From a virus, in IMG/VR virus record IMGVR_UViG_3300021963_000084, positions 18,460-82,459 of that record: 64,000 bases of DNA; one strand, given 5' to 3'. The notes beneath the pieces were generated by a model. That model did not search any database. It was not told the DNA's origin and saw only the letters and a program-made list of their open reading frames with translations. The translations under genes were made by a program, and so were the position numbers. Shown here one piece after another: positions 17,701-45,102 of the stretch; positions within the stretch are counted from its first letter, which is position 1, and each line of letters opens with the position of its first letter.

Positions 17701-19413
17701 GCACAAAATTCTTCTTCCTGGGTAGAAGATCCTATAGAAGATATCAAGTTTACTATAAACAGAGCTGTTTTCTCAAGAGGATCTACAGCAAACGTTGAAT
17801 TAGTAAATAAAGATCTTGAAACCGTCATTCTTCCTAATAATCCAATTAGCGTTGATAACACTGTAGGAACTTCTTCAGTATTTGGCGGAAATGAAAAAAT
17901 TCTAAGAATAAATCATCCAAATCATGGTATGCAATCTGGTGATGTGGTATTCTTAAGTGGTATTGCTGGTATCGGAAGTCCTGAAAATGTTTTCGGAATT
18001 CCTGTTTCTATTTTAAATGGATTCCATGATATTTTCAATGTTGGACTTGATGATTACTGTATTTTAATCAATAGTACTTTATGGAGTTCTATTCCAGTTA
18101 CATTAACTGGAAGTGGTTCTGGTGGGGGTTCTCTAGTAAGAGCAACGACAAATAAATTATATCAGATCATTCAATCTCAAGTGGGAACACTCGCATTTTC
18201 TTCATCATCTGTATCTCATTCTATTACCACTACAAATGGCAAAGCAGTTGATAGTTCAACTACTAATGAATATACATTAAGCAGTGCTGTTAATATTATA
18301 CCAGGAGAAAATTATTTCTTTGATACAAGTAGAGTAATTGCTTCTGCACTAAATGAAATTAATTATGATGGCGTAAATCGTCTTAATGGAAGAAAAACAT
18401 TAACATATACATTATCAATGCAAACTGGAAGAGACAATGTTTCTCCAGTAATTGATCTTAGAAGAGCAAATGTAATTACAGTCGGAAGTAGATTAGATAA
18501 TCCAACTGGAAATGAAGTAAGATATGGTGCAAAGAGTCAGGTATTGACAGTTCCTACTTCTTCTTCATATAGTTTAACTTCTACAACTCAACTTGTAAAA
18601 ACTACTATCATCAATTTTACTGCTGCAGCTGGTGGATCTTTTGCCGTCACAACTGGATCTCCAACAGTATTGAATCAAATCCAAGGAGGAACAGTGGTGA
18701 CTGGTGAAATTGTTTCTGTATCAGCAGGGCAACTTAAAGTAATTAATACCACAGGAACTTTTGTAAGTGGCACACAAATTAGTCAAACAATTGGTGCTGC
18801 TACAATTACTACTACTCCTACGAGTGTGGTGAATAAGAGTGGTATTGTAAATGGATGGGATTCTGGAAATGGAACTCTGCGTATTAAATTAACAAGTGAA
18901 ACACCATTTACTGCAAATGATATTATTAATGATTTTTCAGCAACCCCAACTGCAAGGTTAATTTCTGCTGCTTCTTCGACTAGAGGATTCTTGTTTATTC
19001 CTGATACTGAACCAATTGGTACTTCTACGAAATCAAAATATCTCACAAAAGAAGTAACTCTTGAAGCACCAGCAGAATCTCTTGATGTAAGAATTACTGC
19101 AAATCTCTTCTCTAATAGTGATATGAAGGTTATGTATAAGATTAAAGAAGATGGAAGCACTCAAGACTTCAATAGAATTTCTTGGAGTTACTTCAATGGC
19201 ACTGGACTATCAGACAATAATGCAACTGCAACCCCAGATACATTGAACACCCAATCACCAACTGCAGAAGATTTAAACTCTTATATTGAGTATAGATTCA
19301 CCGCAAATGATTTGGCACCTTTCAAGTCATTTGCAATTAAAATTGTATTTACCAGCAGTAATCCTGCTTACCCGCCAAGAGTAGAAGACCTTCGTGCAAT
19401 CGCTCATTCATAA
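11776..19413 (+). CDS. Giant 2545-residue DUF4815-like baseplate/tail protein
   Basis: The N-terminus ('PYFDDFDPIKNFYRVLFRPG' and 'SRELTSLQSILQNQIE') is the signature of the DUF4815-type structural proteins found next to gp8 in marine T4-like phages. A putative coiled coil lies at residues ~1225-1260 ('MRDIGKLVKRIEKLEYYTTL'), then 'ARGLEPNTRLYAFFDGIDVN' (~1490) and 'LLDPIAQTFEVSGFDEG' (~1663), all of which I recall as family landmarks. The rest is beta-rich: GxGY units ('VNGGTGYTTASG', 'VTDFGSGYSSVAG', 'VTNPGNGYYAAPAV') and 'GTFRPGETI'-type units. It is likely a virion protein bridging wedge and fibres, because of its position between gp8 and the fibre genes; no exact T4 counterpart can be named. 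Its stop overlaps the next start as TAATG, so the two are coupled. Confidence 0.75.
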   Translation: MPQNTNLNRSPYFDDFDPIKNFYRVLFRPGYSIQSRELTSLQSILQNQIEQLSKSRFKQGSIVVPGEIIYDDRYDYVKLSSFTNNLLITDYIGTRVTGSVSGLVATIVNATAATATDSATFFVKYENSGSSTTATRFTEGETLTANSAGNPTAIVGITGTARPTSTPAVGSGSAVTVNEGVYFINGTLVRTDRQTVILDKYGNTPSYKVGFVVSETLVTPEEDFSLLDNAQGYSNFTAPGAHRLKITVTLAKRALDFPEQRDFVQLLLIQGGVVRQTVETGDNSSLFEDVLARRTYDESGDYVVRDFNLGLREHLNSGSNNGVYLASAGGDAGKFIAELSPGKAYVRGYEIETTSTRYVEINKARDTATNSDVALSILEGPNFTVRNLYGFPDIENISGGGGLVITSTKSFSEVKLFQNYSDGMFGDTSYGSDTTSPESEVCWIITVTGAGLSAITAAAAGGTWVISSAPGGSINGIIKNYSVNAAGTFATLFVTKTGTGIFRAGNSIAISTTGGNVTATLSTYEKISSGLVGISKTKYIKLLSPGSTTSNVLDKLSTTFKLGLFKTNYTTKIVCKNSVNFFTGGTTLAVGRYVYGQSSGASGILETYSDEGREIFLSNVSGTFRPGETIITEPIGTSTPVNFIEPEGTIEYFKQVNGGTGYTTASGITVTINGVDKTSIIGTSNINVSGGKVNSIDLTPSVREALGSSYTTPPTVVISGGGGTAAEFIAITNSNTVVNFDSSYVRSFYGFTSNNYFSGDISSVQNDYVVSNGALFSASDGDHFIRADNLGARPDLDLINGDIIRVVNNTGASTKYIVRQAVRDSGSNTARIYVYGKVLSTFGAKTVTRIRTKLNGLTSDTNIIPFANKNVSTAVLNPGSNTEINYTIQKEFVDILDGSGSKTFTLSTGESFINDTYVFTLLTSHPTIAVISAGSLIDISSNVTNSGSSLTVNLGSTYSGLQFKLVATVRKSDTTPKTKTLFVDATQNIDSDFTNEIIPLIYADGYKLKGVYMSTSGASATVNDVNITDNFIFDGGQRETYYDLARLIRKPGAPVPTNKLLVVFDYFRHVGAGDYFVVDSYTNIDYGDIPTFNSSVHGLVSLSDVVDFRPRVADYNETNGSWIAGFADKSFIESANFDGGGASASYVALFGQPFDTGYRYYLNRIDSIYLNKSGRFVVASGTPSLNPQVPSQIDDAILLYTLNIPAYTANVSDIKIRSFDNRRYTMRDIGKLVKRIEKLEYYTTLSLLEQDTFNSQVRDENGNERFKNGIIVDNFEGHNVGNTLSTDYACSVDTQTGILRPSFYASQTELIENNLTDAQRTANGYKRTGDLITLPYTEQSTVLNQFATRNLTINPGRASRYAGVMTLEPNIDEWRDTITPPELVVNENSIFDTIRNNSTDLWGSIWNDWQFAWTGTQSYNLANSTTSISNGIAQFGDNTNNLVRGSTRTRSRNGTQNRLTPYGSAVNAVGERVVANVYNPYIRSRVVSFVARGLEPNTRLYAFFDGIDVNAWVSPDNVNGLLTPFTGVAGYAELGFGQAITTDANGNISGQFLIPNGYAPVSGRRVLDLTSSPSTFYQTSGEQRRFTAGTKVLRLTSSSTNTSDQTSVTTFVESEYVVSGSPETSLGSIQSTRVPSISRRSISNSDTVQFVGTNRVNVNQSGLLDPIAQTFEVSGFDEGLFLTSLDLYFQNKTTSSGTDTDRPVTVYLTETTAGVPTRRTLPFSEVTLNPDTILRIRTTNTVSPGVSFTAGVTVTGVSSGATGEIKTTQVVSDPNTRYNLRLRNHNGISFIPGEQLILNVSPAITTTQFFIDLDSGQVESIKVTDFGSGYSSVAGGVTINITGDNGGAFGIPAAAVADVYEGRIYNIRVTNPGNGYYAAPAVSITGTGGTGATAQAIFRITNPAVKMGISVSTDATVKTRFTFPSPVYLANNTTYAFVVSSTSPDYTVYTSRVGEALLASTVLATNQPGVGSLYKAQNSSSWVEDPIEDIKFTINRAVFSRGSTANVELVNKDLETVILPNNPISVDNTVGTSSVFGGNEKILRINHPNHGMQSGDVVFLSGIAGIGSPENVFGIPVSILNGFHDIFNVGLDDYCILINSTLWSSIPVTLTGSGSGGGSLVRATTNKLYQIIQSQVGTLAFSSSSVSHSITTTNGKAVDSSTTNEYTLSSAVNIIPGENYFFDTSRVIASALNEINYDGVNRLNGRKTLTYTLSMQTGRDNVSPVIDLRRANVITVGSRLDNPTGNEVRYGAKSQVLTVPTSSSYSLTSTTQLVKTTIINFTAAAGGSFAVTTGSPTVLNQIQGGTVVTGEIVSVSAGQLKVINTTGTFVSGTQISQTIGAATITTTPTSVVNKSGIVNGWDSGNGTLRIKLTSETPFTANDIINDFSATPTARLISAASSTRGFLFIPDTEPIGTSTKSKYLTKEVTLEAPAESLDVRITANLFSNSDMKVMYKIKEDGSTQDFNRISWSYFNGTGLSDNNATATPDTLNTQSPTAEDLNSYIEYRFTANDLAPFKSFAIKIVFTSSNPAYPPRVEDLRAIAHS

Positions 19414-19616
19414 TGGACAAGTATAAAGTAGAAGGTCACGCTGATCTTTATCGTGATATGAATTCAGGTGCCATCATTAATTCAAATTATGATGAGTACC
19501 TGAAATATAAAAAGGCAAAGGCAAACCGTGACAATATGGTTAATGAGATAAATACTTTGAAGCAAGAACTTGATGAAATCAAGCAATTATTAAAGCAACT
19601 TACCAATGGCAATTAG
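19413..19616 (+). CDS. Small coiled-coil protein (67 residues)
   Basis: The start overlaps the previous stop by one base (TAATG) and the end overlaps the tail-fibre start by 11 bp, so it is wedged between two virion genes and very probably translated. The C-terminal half ('NMVNEINTLKQELDEIKQLL') has clear heptad spacing and should form a coiled coil. The N-terminal half has 'YRDMNSGAIINSN', which I recall from small hypothetical proteins at this place in cyanophages. A role in fibre trimerisation or as a fibre assembly chaperone is only a guess from position and length. Confidence 0.7.
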   Translation: MDKYKVEGHADLYRDMNSGAIINSNYDEYLKYKKAKANRDNMVNEINTLKQELDEIKQLLKQLTNGN

Positions 19617-21792
19617 AGAAGTTTTACTTAGCAATACTTTTGAGCAGCAACGTCAGTTAATCAATCTGATCGGAACTGATATTGGTGATTGTCAAAACTT
19701 AGTTACTCCGTCAAAAGTAGTTACTACTTCTGTTAATCAGGTAGTTGCTGGTTTTGTTACTCTTTCAGGGCAAACAATTCAACTTGAAGATGGTTCTTTA
19801 GGAACACCAAGTTTATCTTTTGATAGTGCTACTAATTTAGGTCTTTATAAGGTAGACGCAAATACTCTTGGTGTTACAAAAAGTCTTTATGTGGCTAGTG
19901 GTCTCACAGTAGAAGGAGATATTACATTTAGAGCTGGTAATGGTAGTGCTGGTAGTATTATTTTTGGAGATTTAGATACTGATAATATTGTCTTTAATGC
20001 TGATTTAAATTCACACGCTATTCCCAATATCGATAATACCTATGATTTAGGTTCTTTATCTAAGGAATGGAGAAATCTTTACATTGATGGAACTGCTTAT
20101 ATTGATACTCTTCAAGTTGATGAAGATTTAACTGTTACTGGAAACGTTGCAGTAAATGGCGGTAACGTTACAACTACTTCAAACACTGTTACAGTATTTA
20201 ATTCAACAGCTGTAAATGCGCTTGTTTTAGGTGATGCTACTACTATCACTTTAGGCGCAACAACAGGAACTTTAACCTTAAGAAATCCTACAGTTGTAGG
20301 AACAAATACGACTCAAAATCTTTATAATACTGTAGCAACCACAGTAAATGCTTTTGGTGCGGCATACAATGTAACCATGGGTGTTACTGCTCCCAGTGGA
20401 GTTCCCAATACTAATTTTAGAATCAGAAGTGATGATACAGTATTAGATGGTGATTTAAATGTAAATGGTGGTGAGATTTTATCTAGTCAGAATACTTTTT
20501 TATTATTAATTAATAATAGTGATATTAGAATTGGTTCTACTATTGGAACTGGAACTACAGTAATTAATAATTCTTTAAAAATTAAAGGTTCTTCCCTTGA
20601 TTTATCAAATCAAGCAGTCACAGTTTCTCTGATTGATAATGTTAATCCAGCCCTTAGAATTAGAGAGGGAACAAATGATTATTTGAGTTTCCAAACAACA
20701 GACAGTGCTGAAAAAGTTATCTTCCACAAAAATGCAAATTTCACCCAGAACGGGTACTTCGGAGATAATAATATTTTGCATCTCGGAGACAGTAATGATC
20801 TAGCAATCTACCACGATGGTTCTCATAGTTACATCAGAGATCAAGGAACTGGAAATCTTTATATTCAAGGAACTAATAATGTTTCTATCAGAAAAGATGA
20901 TGGTTCTGAAGTTATGGCAGTATTCAATGCCGATGGTGCATCAGAACTTTACTTTGATAACTCTAAGAAACTTGAAACAACTGCAACAGGAATTACTGTA
21001 ACAGGTGATATCTCTGTTTCTAATATTAACGGCGCTGGAGCTACATTTACAGGAAATGTAACTGCTTCTGGTGTTACAGTAAATGGTAATTTGACTGTAA
21101 ATGGCACAACCACTACAATAAATTCAACTGTACTAAGTATTGATGATGTTAATATTGTACTTGCCGATGGTGCATCGACTTCAGCAGCAGTAGATGGTGC
21201 TGGCATTACACTCGGAACCACTGGAATTACTTTCACTTATTCAAACACTGGAACTCGCTGGTCATCAACAGAAAACTTAAATATTGCTACAGGAAAAACT
21301 TATCAAATTGCAGGAACTACAGTTCTTTCTGCAACTCAAGTATTAGGAAGAGGATTTACTAATGCTGCTGGTGAAATTGTAACTACAGATGGCACTCAAA
21401 CTTTAAGTGCTAAAACATTAACCAGTCCAGCAATTAATGGTGGTGCCTTTGGATCAGCAAGTTCAACGACTGATGCAGATGCTACTGTTGATGCTTCTGT
21501 AACTACTTTATATGCATATGTGCAAAGTGCCAGTACAACAGCAAGAACAATTAATATTAGCAACCTTGCTCCAGGAAGAATCATTGAATTGTATTTAAGA
21601 AATACTAACGCTGGAGCAAAAACAATTAACATTACAGCAAGCAATACCACAACTGGATTTACTGCTGTCAACCTTTCTAAAGGTGATGCTGGCGGCACAA
21701 GTCAAACTAGCGTAACGTTGGCTGCTACTTCAGGAACAGCAGTTGTACTTATCTTTAACGCAAATGGTGTGATCGGAGGCAGCATTTCATAA
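19606..21792 (+). CDS. Tail fibre-like protein (728 residues)
   Basis: A fibre protein built from well-known marine-phage fibre repeats. 'NIDNTYDLGSLSKEWRNLYI' and 'IDTLQVDEDLTVTGN' (residues ~140-185) come first. 'GDSNDLAIYHDGSHSYIRDQ' through 'LYFDNSKKLETTATGITVTG' (~390-470) follow. 'VNGNLTVNGTTTTINSTVL' and 'TTDGTQTLSAKTLTSPAING' come after that, and the protein ends in a beta-sandwich-like C-terminus ('NISNLAPGRIIELYLRNTNA'). The N-terminus 'LSNTFEQQRQLINLIGTDIG' is short and presumably attaches to the baseplate. The pattern of alternating short glycine- and threonine-rich strands fits a trimeric beta-helical shaft. It likely contributes to host recognition. The receptor-binding part cannot be located from sequence. 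Confidence 0.8.
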   Translation: MAIREVLLSNTFEQQRQLINLIGTDIGDCQNLVTPSKVVTTSVNQVVAGFVTLSGQTIQLEDGSLGTPSLSFDSATNLGLYKVDANTLGVTKSLYVASGLTVEGDITFRAGNGSAGSIIFGDLDTDNIVFNADLNSHAIPNIDNTYDLGSLSKEWRNLYIDGTAYIDTLQVDEDLTVTGNVAVNGGNVTTTSNTVTVFNSTAVNALVLGDATTITLGATTGTLTLRNPTVVGTNTTQNLYNTVATTVNAFGAAYNVTMGVTAPSGVPNTNFRIRSDDTVLDGDLNVNGGEILSSQNTFLLLINNSDIRIGSTIGTGTTVINNSLKIKGSSLDLSNQAVTVSLIDNVNPALRIREGTNDYLSFQTTDSAEKVIFHKNANFTQNGYFGDNNILHLGDSNDLAIYHDGSHSYIRDQGTGNLYIQGTNNVSIRKDDGSEVMAVFNADGASELYFDNSKKLETTATGITVTGDISVSNINGAGATFTGNVTASGVTVNGNLTVNGTTTTINSTVLSIDDVNIVLADGASTSAAVDGAGITLGTTGITFTYSNTGTRWSSTENLNIATGKTYQIAGTTVLSATQVLGRGFTNAAGEIVTTDGTQTLSAKTLTSPAINGGAFGSASSTTDADATVDASVTTLYAYVQSASTTARTINISNLAPGRIIELYLRNTNAGAKTINITASNTTTGFTAVNLSKGDAGGTSQTSVTLAATSGTAVVLIFNANGVIGGSIS

Positions 21793-21799
21793 TCCTTCC

Positions 21800-21828
21800 T
21801 TGACAACCCTTATAAATTATAGTATGAT
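21800..21828 (+). promoter_or_regulatory. Consensus sigma70 promoter driving the glycosyltransferase
   Basis: TTGACA (21800-21805) and TATGAT (21823-21828) are separated by exactly 17 bp, close to the ideal sigma70 promoter, and sit 23 bp before the glycosyltransferase ATG. A 6-bp inverted repeat (TGACAA at 21801-21806, TTGTCA at 21841-21846) brackets the -10 and start region and could serve as an operator or 5' hairpin. This is an early-type promoter in the middle of late genes. Confidence 0.8.
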
Positions 21829-21851
21829 GTCTATGAAAAATTGTCATTTCT

Positions 21852-23033
21852 ATGAGTAAGAAAAAATTATTGTGGATTGGTGACTGTGTTATTCCGAGTG
21901 GATTTGGCAGAGTATCAGAATCCATTCTGACTAGAATTCATTCAAAATATGATACCACAGTAATGGGTATCAATTATTTTGGTCAAAAACACGAGTTTCC
22001 ATTTAAAATTTTCGCCGCTAGTACTAAAGGTGGTGCATCAGATCCTTATGGATTCAATTATGTTGAAGAACTTTATAATGCTATTAAACCAGATATCATT
22101 GTAGCATTCAATGATGTTTGGATTATTAATATGTATTGGCAAAAACTTAAGGCATATAAAGAATCTGATGAATTTAAGTGGATTAATTATTTCCCTGTAG
22201 ATGGGGGCGGTTGGTTTGAACCAGTCGTAAAATGGATGGAGGAAACAGATCTTTCTGTTACATACACTAATTATGCAAAAAACGTAATTCTTGAAGCTGG
22301 TTATGAAGGTAAAATTGAAACCTTAGAGCACGGTGTTGACACGCAAACTTTTTTTCCTATGGACAAAAAGCAATGCCGAGGTATTATTGGCAAAATGCAA
22401 GATGATGATTTCATTGTATTCAATGGCAATCGTAATCAACCACGCAAAAGAATTGATTTAACTATTATGGCATTTGCCAGGTTTGCGGTTGACAAACCAG
22501 ATGCTAAATTATACCTACATATGGGTGTTAAGGATTGTGGATGGGACATTGTACCTCTTTTCAATACTGAAATGAAGAAGAATGGTCTAGACCCACAAGG
22601 AAGACTATATCTTTCTGGTTTGGAAATGACTCCTGAAAAAAATGCAATCACTCCAGAAGTTCTCAACATCATCTATAATTCAGTTGATGTTGGAGTAAAT
22701 ACTTCTGAAGGAGAAGGTTGGGGTCTTGTTCCTTTTGAGCACGCTGCAACTGGTTGTCCTCAAGTAGTTCCTAACTATGCTGCAAGTGCTGAATTGTTTA
22801 AGAATGCTGGTAGTTTAGTTGATATTGCTTTTATGGGTAAAGATGTTAACTACGGAATTGATAGAGCATATGTATCAGTAGAAGGAATAGTGGAAGAACT
22901 TAATAAACTTTATAATGACAAAAAACATTATGAATCTTGTTCCAAAAAATGTATGGCTCTAACTCAGAGACCAGAATATAAGTGGGACAATATCGCTAAA
23001 AAAATGAACAAGTACATCTCATCGGTAATTTAA
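21852..23033 (+). CDS. GT-B fold glycosyltransferase (GT4-like)
   Basis: A 393-residue retaining-type glycosyltransferase. The N-terminal half has the Rossmann-like 'LLWIGDCVIPSGFGRVSESI' with a glycine-rich turn. The C-terminal half has the GT4 signature 'SEGEGWGLVPFEHAATG', where E288 and E296 make the E-x7-E pair that contacts the sugar nucleotide. 'NGNRNQPRKRIDL' (~residue 200) is the usual start of the C-terminal domain, with the Arg/Lys that binds the diphosphate. No membrane segment is seen, so it should act in the cytoplasm. The donor and acceptor are not known: options are a virion protein (the neighbouring fibres are Ser/Thr-rich), host surface glycans or phage DNA. It has its own promoter and shares a terminator with the next gene, so it may be expressed earlier than its neighbours. 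Confidence 0.88.
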   Translation: MSKKKLLWIGDCVIPSGFGRVSESILTRIHSKYDTTVMGINYFGQKHEFPFKIFAASTKGGASDPYGFNYVEELYNAIKPDIIVAFNDVWIINMYWQKLKAYKESDEFKWINYFPVDGGGWFEPVVKWMEETDLSVTYTNYAKNVILEAGYEGKIETLEHGVDTQTFFPMDKKQCRGIIGKMQDDDFIVFNGNRNQPRKRIDLTIMAFARFAVDKPDAKLYLHMGVKDCGWDIVPLFNTEMKKNGLDPQGRLYLSGLEMTPEKNAITPEVLNIIYNSVDVGVNTSEGEGWGLVPFEHAATGCPQVVPNYAASAELFKNAGSLVDIAFMGKDVNYGIDRAYVSVEGIVEELNKLYNDKKHYESCSKKCMALTQRPEYKWDNIAKKMNKYISSVI

Positions 23034-23037
23034 AACT

Positions 23038-23220
23038 ATGGAACGCACAGAACTTAAAGAAAATTTCACCAATCAGTTTAATACTGTAATCGATGAAATC
23101 AAAAATCTTGAAGCACAATTAACTGCTAAACGAGAAATGGCACTTAAACTTAAAGGCGCTATCGAAGCACTATCACTTTTAGAAACTGAAAATACTGAAG
23201 AAGAACCTTCAGAAGAATGA
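23038..23220 (+). CDS. Small coiled-coil protein (60 residues)
   Basis: A 60-residue, highly charged protein starting 4 bp after the glycosyltransferase stop and ending just before the terminator, so it belongs to the same short transcription unit. Residues ~10-45 ('FNTVIDEIKNLEAQLTAKRE') are predicted to be helical with heptads; the tail is acidic ('TENTEEEPSEE'). No enzyme motif is visible. It could be a partner of the glycosyltransferase or a small virion or scaffold protein; the shared transcript favours the former. Confidence 0.65.
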   Translation: MERTELKENFTNQFNTVIDEIKNLEAQLTAKREMALKLKGAIEALSLLETENTEEEPSEE

Positions 23221-23230
23221 TAAATACAGA

Positions 23231-23261
23231 CCTTCCTTATAAATAACAAGGAAGGTTTTTT
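23231..23261 (+). terminator. Intrinsic terminator with a late promoter in its loop
   Basis: CCTTCCTT (23231-23238) pairs with AAGGAAGG (23248-23255), followed by six T residues (23256-23261). The 9-base loop ATAAATAAC together with the last stem base makes TATAAATA. It closes the glycosyltransferase unit. Confidence 0.85.
23238..23245 (+). promoter_or_regulatory. T4-type late promoter inside a terminator loop
   Basis: An exact TATAAATA octamer begins at the last base of the terminator's 5' arm and runs through the loop, 22 bp before the ATG at 23268. The spacing to the next gene is like that of other late promoters in the window. Confidence 0.7.
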
Positions 23262-23267
23262 CATTAT

Positions 23268-23600
23268 ATGTCCGCAATTACAATTAATGTAGTAATAGAG
23301 CAGGGGTCTGATTTTGCAGCGACCTTTACCATTAAGAATGCGGATGGTTCTTACTTGAATCTGACTGGATTCACAGCAGAAAGTAAGATGAAAAAAAGTT
23401 ACTACACTAGTAGTTCTGTGGCATTAAATGTTACTTTTACTGATAGAAGTAGAGGAATGATTACATTATCATTACCCGCTGCAACTACAACTACATTGAC
23501 ACCAAAAAGATACGTTTATGATATTATCTTAACTTCACCAATTGGAGTTAAAACTAGAGTTGTTGAAGGAATTGCTACAGTAACTCCAGGAGTAACATAG
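23268..23600 (+). CDS. Small beta-sandwich virion-like protein (110 residues)
   Basis: The N-terminus 'INVVIEQGSDFAATFTIKNA' followed by 'GSYLNLTGFTAESKMKKSYY' resembles the N-terminal beta-sandwich of phage baseplate upper proteins (BppU-type: 'qGdt...vdltg...akirk'). The C-terminus 'YVYDIILTSPIGVKTRVVEG' fits the same fold. The similarity is by eye only. It sits behind a late promoter and its TAG stop overlaps the GTG start of the next gene, so the two are coupled and probably assemble together. Likely a fibre adaptor or accessory virion protein; exact role unknown. Confidence 0.65.
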   Translation: MSAITINVVIEQGSDFAATFTIKNADGSYLNLTGFTAESKMKKSYYTSSSVALNVTFTDRSRGMITLSLPAATTTTLTPKRYVYDIILTSPIGVKTRVVEGIATVTPGVT

Positions 23601-24301
23601 TGTCCGACTTTCAGGTAACGTTAAACACTAATAATTATACTGTAGTTCCACAGGAACCAGATGAATATCGTGTTGGTGTAGATTATGCACCAGATAATAA
23701 ATCTATTCAATATCAAAATTTAATTATTGATAATTTGTCAGGGCAATTTGATTGTGTCCGCAGAACTTTTGATATTAGAGTAGGTGGGGTTTTGTATAAT
23801 GCACTTAACGATCAACAACTTATCATATCACTAAATAATGTTATATTGCAGCCTGGTGTAGGTTATACTGTATCAGGTAATCAGATTACTTTTGCGACTG
23901 CTCCTTGTAATGTTCCCTTTTTTGGTATCGCTTTAGCAAACACCGCTGATTTGACAAGAACCATAAATTATGTTGTTGATTATGGGTCTAGTCCCATTAA
24001 TGTTGGCGATAAAGGGTCTCTTGCAATTGATGTCACTGGTGTGATAGAATCTTGGGTATTGGTTGCTGATCAAATTGGTAGTTTGGTTTTGGACATTAGA
24101 AAAGCATCATATGCTGATTATCCAAATGTCACTACAATATGTGGAGGGACTAGACCCTCATTAGTAAACCAAAACAAAAACACCAGCAGCAATTTAGGTA
24201 CTTGGAATAAAGTTCTTAATGCTGGTGATATCTTAAATTATAATGTTATCTCAGTGACTGGAATCAACAGGTTCTCAATCGCACTGAAAGTAAAATTATA
24301 A
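23600..24301 (+). CDS. Structural protein of unknown role, GTG start (233 residues)
   Basis: The reading frame begins at a GTG that shares its first G with the upstream TAG stop (TAGTG), so translation probably depends on termination-reinitiation. The next in-frame ATG would remove most of the protein. Residues ~50-120 include 'FDIRVGGVLYNALNDQQLII' and 'LNNVILQPGVGYTVSGNQIT', the same kind of unit as 'LLDGVPQLYGDSYTI' in the 2639-residue baseplate giant. The C-terminus is 'VISVTGINRFSIALKVKL'. These features fit a virion protein exposed on the tail or fibres. No named family can be assigned. A late promoter for the next gene overlaps its stop codon. Confidence 0.7.
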   Translation: MSDFQVTLNTNNYTVVPQEPDEYRVGVDYAPDNKSIQYQNLIIDNLSGQFDCVRRTFDIRVGGVLYNALNDQQLIISLNNVILQPGVGYTVSGNQITFATAPCNVPFFGIALANTADLTRTINYVVDYGSSPINVGDKGSLAIDVTGVIESWVLVADQIGSLVLDIRKASYADYPNVTTICGGTRPSLVNQNKNTSSNLGTWNKVLNAGDILNYNVISVTGINRFSIALKVKL

Positions 24302-34714: not shown

Positions 34715-34903
34715 ATGACAACACAAGTACAATTCCGTAGAGGAACAACGGCACAACACGCCACGTTTACTGGTGCTCAAGGAGAGATTACAGTAGATAC
34801 CGACAAAAAAACAGCAATTGTACATGATGGTTCAACAGCTGGCGGAATTGAATTAGCCAGAGCGGATGGAGCGATTGCTTATTCCATCATTTTTGGATTG
34901 TGA
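34715..34903 (+). CDS. Stand-alone Mtd-N-like fibre domain (62 residues)
   Basis: The sequence 'VQFRRGTTAQHATFTGAQGE' with 'ITVDTDKKTAIVHDGSTAGG' fits the short N-terminal domain of phage tropism determinants and fibres (Mtd_N type: 'iRrGtaaew...GEigvdtdt...iGDGst'). In most phages this domain sits at the head of a much longer fibre and helps trimerise and attach it. Here it is the whole protein: the stop is clear and the next gene starts 52 bp later in another frame with its own leader. It may be a free-standing adaptor for the fibre proteins on either side. The family assignment is by pattern, so moderately sure. Confidence 0.75.
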   Translation: MTTQVQFRRGTTAQHATFTGAQGEITVDTDKKTAIVHDGSTAGGIELARADGAIAYSIIFGL

Positions 34904-45047: not shown

Positions 45048-45069
45048 TTCTCTCAAACATAAGATACAG

Positions 45070-45095
45070 AGAGGGGGGCAACCCCCTCTTTTTTT
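45070..45095 (+). terminator. Strong intrinsic terminator after the 3363-residue gene
   Basis: AGAGGGGG (45070-45077) pairs with CCCCCTCT (45082-45089) around a GCAA tetraloop and is followed by seven T residues (45089-45095). It closes the fibre cluster before the neck genes. Confidence 0.9.
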
Positions 45096-45102
45096 ATAAA
45101 TA
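45095..45102 (+). promoter_or_regulatory. T4-type late promoter fused to the terminator T-run
   Basis: An exact TATAAATA whose first T is the last T of the terminator, 23 bp before the gp13 ATG. It restarts late transcription for the neck and head block. Confidence 0.75.

Follow-up and report, generated by a model that had tools for sequence, protein, structure and literature searches.

A standing regulatory slot is proposed for one clade of T4-like cyanophages, within their late fibre cluster. In this slot the tail fibre gene is followed by a sigma70-type promoter, an optional glycosyltransferase gene (GT), a small coiled-coil gene (cc60), a terminator whose loop contains a late promoter, and late virion genes; the GT product would modify a glycan of the host surface. 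This reading, taken as a whole, was given about an even chance of being right. The anatomy of the locus, its conservation, the presence or absence of GT, the purifying selection on GT and its predicted fold were all read from sequence.

The whole stretch of DNA analysed (the window; 64,000 nucleotides, positions 18,460 to 82,459 of IMGVR_UViG_3300021963_000084) is contained in an 82,459-bp virus record. Its gp23 was approximately 70% identical to gp23 of marine T4-like phages, cyanophages among them. One relative, G006 (177,686 bp), carried two photosystem reaction-centre genes with PF00124 matches, which were read as psbA and psbD. The clade was assigned to the cyanophages, with the host presumed, because of these two genes, and together with the gp23 identity they led to the window being read as a fragment of a T4-like cyanophage. 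The window was mosaic, L007-like upstream and L009-like downstream, with a junction near 23,400-23,800.

Many relatives at the locus were obtained from scans of viral contigs and sorted into three groups. Group A carried GT at the position seen in the window, with the promoter 5' of GT. Group B lacked GT and had the same type of promoter immediately 5' of cc60. In both groups a hairpin with TATAAATA in its loop preceded the next gene. Group C, which was more distant and S-CAM1/S-CAM3-like, had neither GT nor such a hairpin, and most of its loci had a NATAAATA-type late motif 5' of cc60. The features of the locus in the window are listed in Table 1.

Table 1. Features of the locus, in window coordinates.
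Feature	Position	Strand	Basis
Tail fibre gene, 728 aa; N-terminal ~380 aa conserved, C-terminal tip exchangeable	19606..21792	+	PHROG tail fibre, E 3e-22
Sigma70-type promoter, TTGACA-17-TATGAT	21800..21828	+	Motif match; three blocks kept in 29 distinct loci
Late-promoter-like core TATAAATT in the sigma70 spacer (ATAAAT, 21812-21817)	21811..21818	+	Promoter alignment; late-motif comparison
GT4-type glycosyltransferase (GT), 393 aa, predicted GT-B fold	21852..23033	+	Pfam, PHROG, structure prediction, alignments
cc60, 60-aa coiled-coil protein	23038..23220	+	PHROG 580 match (E 2e-16); locus comparison
Second late-promoter-like motif GATAAATA, overlapping the cc60 stop codon	23219..23226	+	Late-motif comparison; not kept in all relatives
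Intrinsic terminator, 11-pair hairpin then T6	23229..23261	+	Folding; pattern comparison
T4-type late promoter TATAAATA in the terminator loop	23238..23245	+	Exact motif; 22 nt before the start codon at 23268
First downstream gene, L-shaped tail fibre assembly-like, 110 aa	23268..23600	+	PHROG 1084 match
Virion structural protein, 233 aa	23600..24301	+	PHROG 10330 match

The sigma70-type promoter and the fibre-tip border

The first-pass annotation had reported a near-consensus sigma70 promoter, and this was present: TTGACA (21800-21805), a 17-bp spacer and TATGAT (21823-21828) gave 11/12 consensus matches. Promoter-like sites of such quality were as frequent as expected by chance (80 found versus 76 ± 7 expected, 19 kb scanned). 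The window promoter is nevertheless beyond chance, because it was kept in 29 distinct relatives while the adjacent upstream sequence changed. No ingroup locus with the promoter stretch in view failed the promoter search. Two 12/12 sigma70 promoter matches, approximately 90 bp apart, were also seen in the upstream part of record L046 (positions 4645 and 4737).

The promoter alignment comprised 29 distinct loci, 10 with GT and 19 without. Three blocks were common to all of them, TTGACA-N6-ATAAAT-N5-TANNAT, with column conservation of 100% in TTGAC and TA..AT, 97-100% in ATAAAT and 38-90% in the other spacer columns. In the 19 GT-less loci the promoter was joined directly to cc60 and the same terminator followed. 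The ATAAAT block resembles the core of a T4 late promoter and stands 33 nt from the start codon (21-51 nt for the other late motifs of the window). Its motif read TATAAATT in loci with GT, and AAATAAAT followed by a T/C region in those without; the eighth base was T or C (T in the window), versus A in each of the window's 11 other intergenic late motifs. With the final A of NATAAATA missing, the block may be inactive as a late promoter. The promoter is not separated from the fibre gene by a terminator, which leaves late read-through into GT unblocked, so that GT may be expressed late too.

The fibre stop codon ended 7 nt before the -35 box in the window, and in relatives it overlapped this box, directly adjoined it or lay 5-17 nt upstream. 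The last 100 fibre residues fell into 13 clusters, between which no similarity was detected. Two clusters held members both with and without GT, and the loci with GT had at least three tip types. The position of the stop codon at the -35 box, together with 13 unrelated tips, indicates that the promoter marks the border of fibre-tip exchange. A more far-reaching form of this view was held tentatively, as somewhat less probable than its converse. In this form the -35 box of a composite sigma70/late-like promoter would supply or abut the fibre stop codon and anchor both tip exchange and cargo insertion, while the terminator with its loop late promoter would switch the locus from a short unit in the early phase to the virion operon in the late phase, giving a fixed two-phase joint in cyanophage fibre clusters. 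With the frame tied to the site of tip swaps, tip exchange in uncultured cyanophages would be traceable by a short DNA signature. Elsewhere in the window, a 62-aa ORF (34715-34903) matched the N-terminal domain of the Major tropism determinant (Pfam Mtd_N, E 5e-18).

A terminator that encloses a late promoter

The intrinsic terminator of the first-pass annotation was recovered as a GC-containing hairpin (23229-23257) followed by a U run (T6 in the DNA), with a folding energy of -13.1 kcal/mol and a z-score of -4.9; no shuffle was equally stable, and z ranged from -4.2 to -4.9 across three loci. The loop carries TATAAATA, a match to NATAAATA shortly upstream of a late gene. This loop motif, the spacer ATAAAT and the second late-type motif GATAAATA are additions to that annotation. 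The hairpin with TATAAATA preceded the next gene alike in loci with and without GT. Scanning viral contigs with the exact hairpin pattern returned 32 stretches, and in each of them the pattern lay 11-12 nt before the same gene. A scan for ATAAATA within terminator-like hairpins gave one occurrence in the 82-kb record and one in G006, at the same site, and none in S-CAM1, T4 or block-shuffled controls. No Rfam families were found at the locus. At 45069-45102 of the window the T-run of a strong terminator led straight into a late promoter, CCCCCTCTTTTTTTATAAATAAC, as a side-by-side overlap of terminator and late promoter.

From this layout we infer early timing and two-phase switching. Host RNA polymerase would start early at the sigma70 promoter and produce a short GT-cc60 transcript ending at the hairpin; such early expression, which had been suggested before, is plausible. 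Later, a gp55-type RNA polymerase would start at TATAAATA in the hairpin loop. A late start a few bases downstream of TATAAATA would fall in the 3' arm of the hairpin, so that the terminator could not re-form and the virion genes would be read. GT is the only accessory part of the slot, one cargo placed in an existing frame. Such an arrangement suggests a way to keep an early-capable gene in a late operon without collision of transcription programmes, with one short element acting as both stop and start signal.

Promoter-early stem-loops (PeSLs; associated with Arbiol 2010 and Comeau 2014) are said to be compact terminator-plus-early-promoter joints scattered through variable regions. The locus shares with them a sigma70-like early promoter and a stem-loop terminator, and on these sequence features it is a PeSL-like variant. 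It differs in having a gene unit flanked by promoter and stem-loop at a single fixed site of the late cluster, and in that the stem-loop encloses a late promoter. The exact patterns occurred at this locus only, not as a compact cassette at many intergenic sites. A mobile cassette scattered through genomes was rejected, as the pattern scans of viral contigs matched only this site plus one promoter match on an unrelated contig. The PeSL cassettes of T4-type phages are described in PMC4503421 as a sigma70-like promoter with a terminator stem-loop, tied to gene exchange in T4-like genomes.

The leaders of T4 gene e and I-TevI have a late promoter at a hairpin, by which transcripts of the late phase avoid a block to translation (PMC3014915). 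The likeness lies in the placing of the late promoter at the hairpin, such that late transcripts without the 5' arm escape the effect of the hairpin. Their hairpin hides a ribosome-binding site, whereas the hairpin here is a transcription terminator. The element in the window would thus do for termination what the gene e and I-TevI hairpins do for translation.

The glycosyltransferase and cc60

The GT4-like glycosyltransferase and the 60-residue coiled-coil protein of the first-pass annotation were both confirmed. GT matched Pfam Glycos_transf_1 above the cut-off and PHROG 2170 with an E value of 5e-50. Its motifs HGVD, NRNQPRKR and E288-x7-E296 were conserved in the cyanophage copies; the E-x7-E pair (E288/E296) and the basic nucleotide-binding residues (NRNQPRKR) were present in all cyanophage T4-like copies, and the first E of E-x7-E was missing in the S-EIV1 homologue. 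The AlphaFold model had a pLDDT of 88.9 and showed two Rossmann-like domains (GT-B fold), with GT-B matches in Foldseek. The best of these was 3oy2, chlorovirus NY-2A B736L (TM 0.83), which shares the GT-B fold and GT4-type motifs; it comes from an algal virus, however, and identity in the structural alignment was 24%. Sequence and predicted fold point to GT4, and GT is in all likelihood an active, retaining enzyme of that family.

B736L binds GDP-mannose best (PMC9614988), and the donor for GT is probably also GDP-mannose. The donor of B736L is itself unsettled, because NY-2A capsid glycans are without mannose (PMC9614988). The PHROG 2170 glycosyltransferases of S-CBS4, S-EIV1 and uncultured phages belong to the same protein family (approximately 40-46% identity) but are found in other phage types and neighbourhoods, many with a GH130-type partner. 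In a deeper scan, a GH130-type gene came after GT in 64 contigs of another phage group (including L137 and L167), and the two genes were encoded on the opposite strand from terL. This pairing with GH130, a mannoside phosphorylase family, supports mannose chemistry and separately regulated expression in that other phage group. No GH130 partner was found in the eight cyanophage records tested. With its mannose link, GT is a testable candidate for surface change in infection.

GT is under purifying selection, with a dN/dS of 0.06-0.17 against relatives with unsaturated dS. It was absent from the whole records of the GT-less phages G005, G006 and G007, which ruled out its relocation elsewhere in them. 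On the tree of the two downstream genes, GT state required two changes and was clustered relative to shuffles; its history was probably one gain and one loss. The tree of the upstream gene also required two changes; among its bootstrap trees, 14% needed a single change. Because recombination occurs at the locus, GT may have a history other than that of these trees. L080, labelled GT-less in the tree, is cut at a contig end and its GT state is not visible.

cc60 occurred in the fibre clusters of cyanophages, distant ones included, whether or not GT was present. Small coiled-coil genes of its family, PHROG 580, are widespread in such clusters. Homology of cc60 to the T4 tail-fibre chaperone gp57A was rejected (1.4% probability in profile comparison). 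A tblastn search with cc60 against the phage collection gave no match, the query being too short and divergent.

Alternative readings of the locus

The first-pass annotation took the locus for a moron, in which GT, cc60, promoter and terminator arrived as one self-regulated unit. The layout of promoter, cargo and terminator stands as described, with GT after a conserved promoter and the terminator ending the unit, and GT is accessory, being missing in some close relatives. The promoter and terminator do not come and go with the gene, however: both, with cc60, remain in 19 distinct relatives without GT, cc60 lies in the fibre cluster of distant GT-less cyanophages, and the late promoter for the virion gene that follows lies within the terminator loop. 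Universal presence of the cassette, named beforehand as evidence against a moron, was found for the promoter-cc60-terminator frame within the clade as far as seen, but not for GT. Joint arrival was judged very unlikely. It is equally improbable that the sigma70-like promoter is inert and GT expressed solely by late read-through from the fibre gene. The unexceptional frequency of such matches and the lack of a terminator after the fibre gene fit this; the three blocks kept in 29 distinct loci next to wholly changed upstream sequence do not. Rather unlikely, but a stronger contender, is a working late promoter in the spacer, so that GT and cc60 would be produced at early and at late times. For RB49 and S-PM2, early promoters that overlap late ones have been proposed (PMC2984593), and the likeness lies in early and late elements in one place. 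Conservation of ATAAAT equals that of the -35 and -10 boxes, the block keeps its position with and without GT, its distance to the start codon is within the range of the window's other late motifs, and cc60 of the distant clade is preceded by a plain NATAAATA late motif. Against this stands the eighth base; in contrast to RB49 and S-PM2, the late-like core lies within the sigma70 spacer and is without the final A.

The standing slot leaves a choice of acceptor. GT may act on the phage itself, by glycosylating its fibres or further virion proteins, much as glycosyltransferases of chloroviruses act on the capsid (PMC4691112); the location of GT among the fibre genes would then reflect this function. 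GT adjoins fibre genes in all cyanophage loci found to carry it, its closest structure belongs to a virus group that glycosylates its capsid, and S-CBS4 has its homologue close to portal and head genes, together with a second glycosyltransferase and a methyltransferase. The same tip families occur with and without GT, however, and several tip types accompany it, which weakly disfavours the tip-specific form of the fibre glycosylation suggested in the first-pass annotation; the opposite orientation to terL and the GH130-type partner in the 64 contigs also speak against virion targets. Virion glycosylation was considered unlikely, and modification of the host surface was favoured over it with modest confidence. 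GT would then alter a host surface glycan during infection, with superinfection exclusion or receptor masking as the possible effect, a role that was itself put at a little below an even chance.
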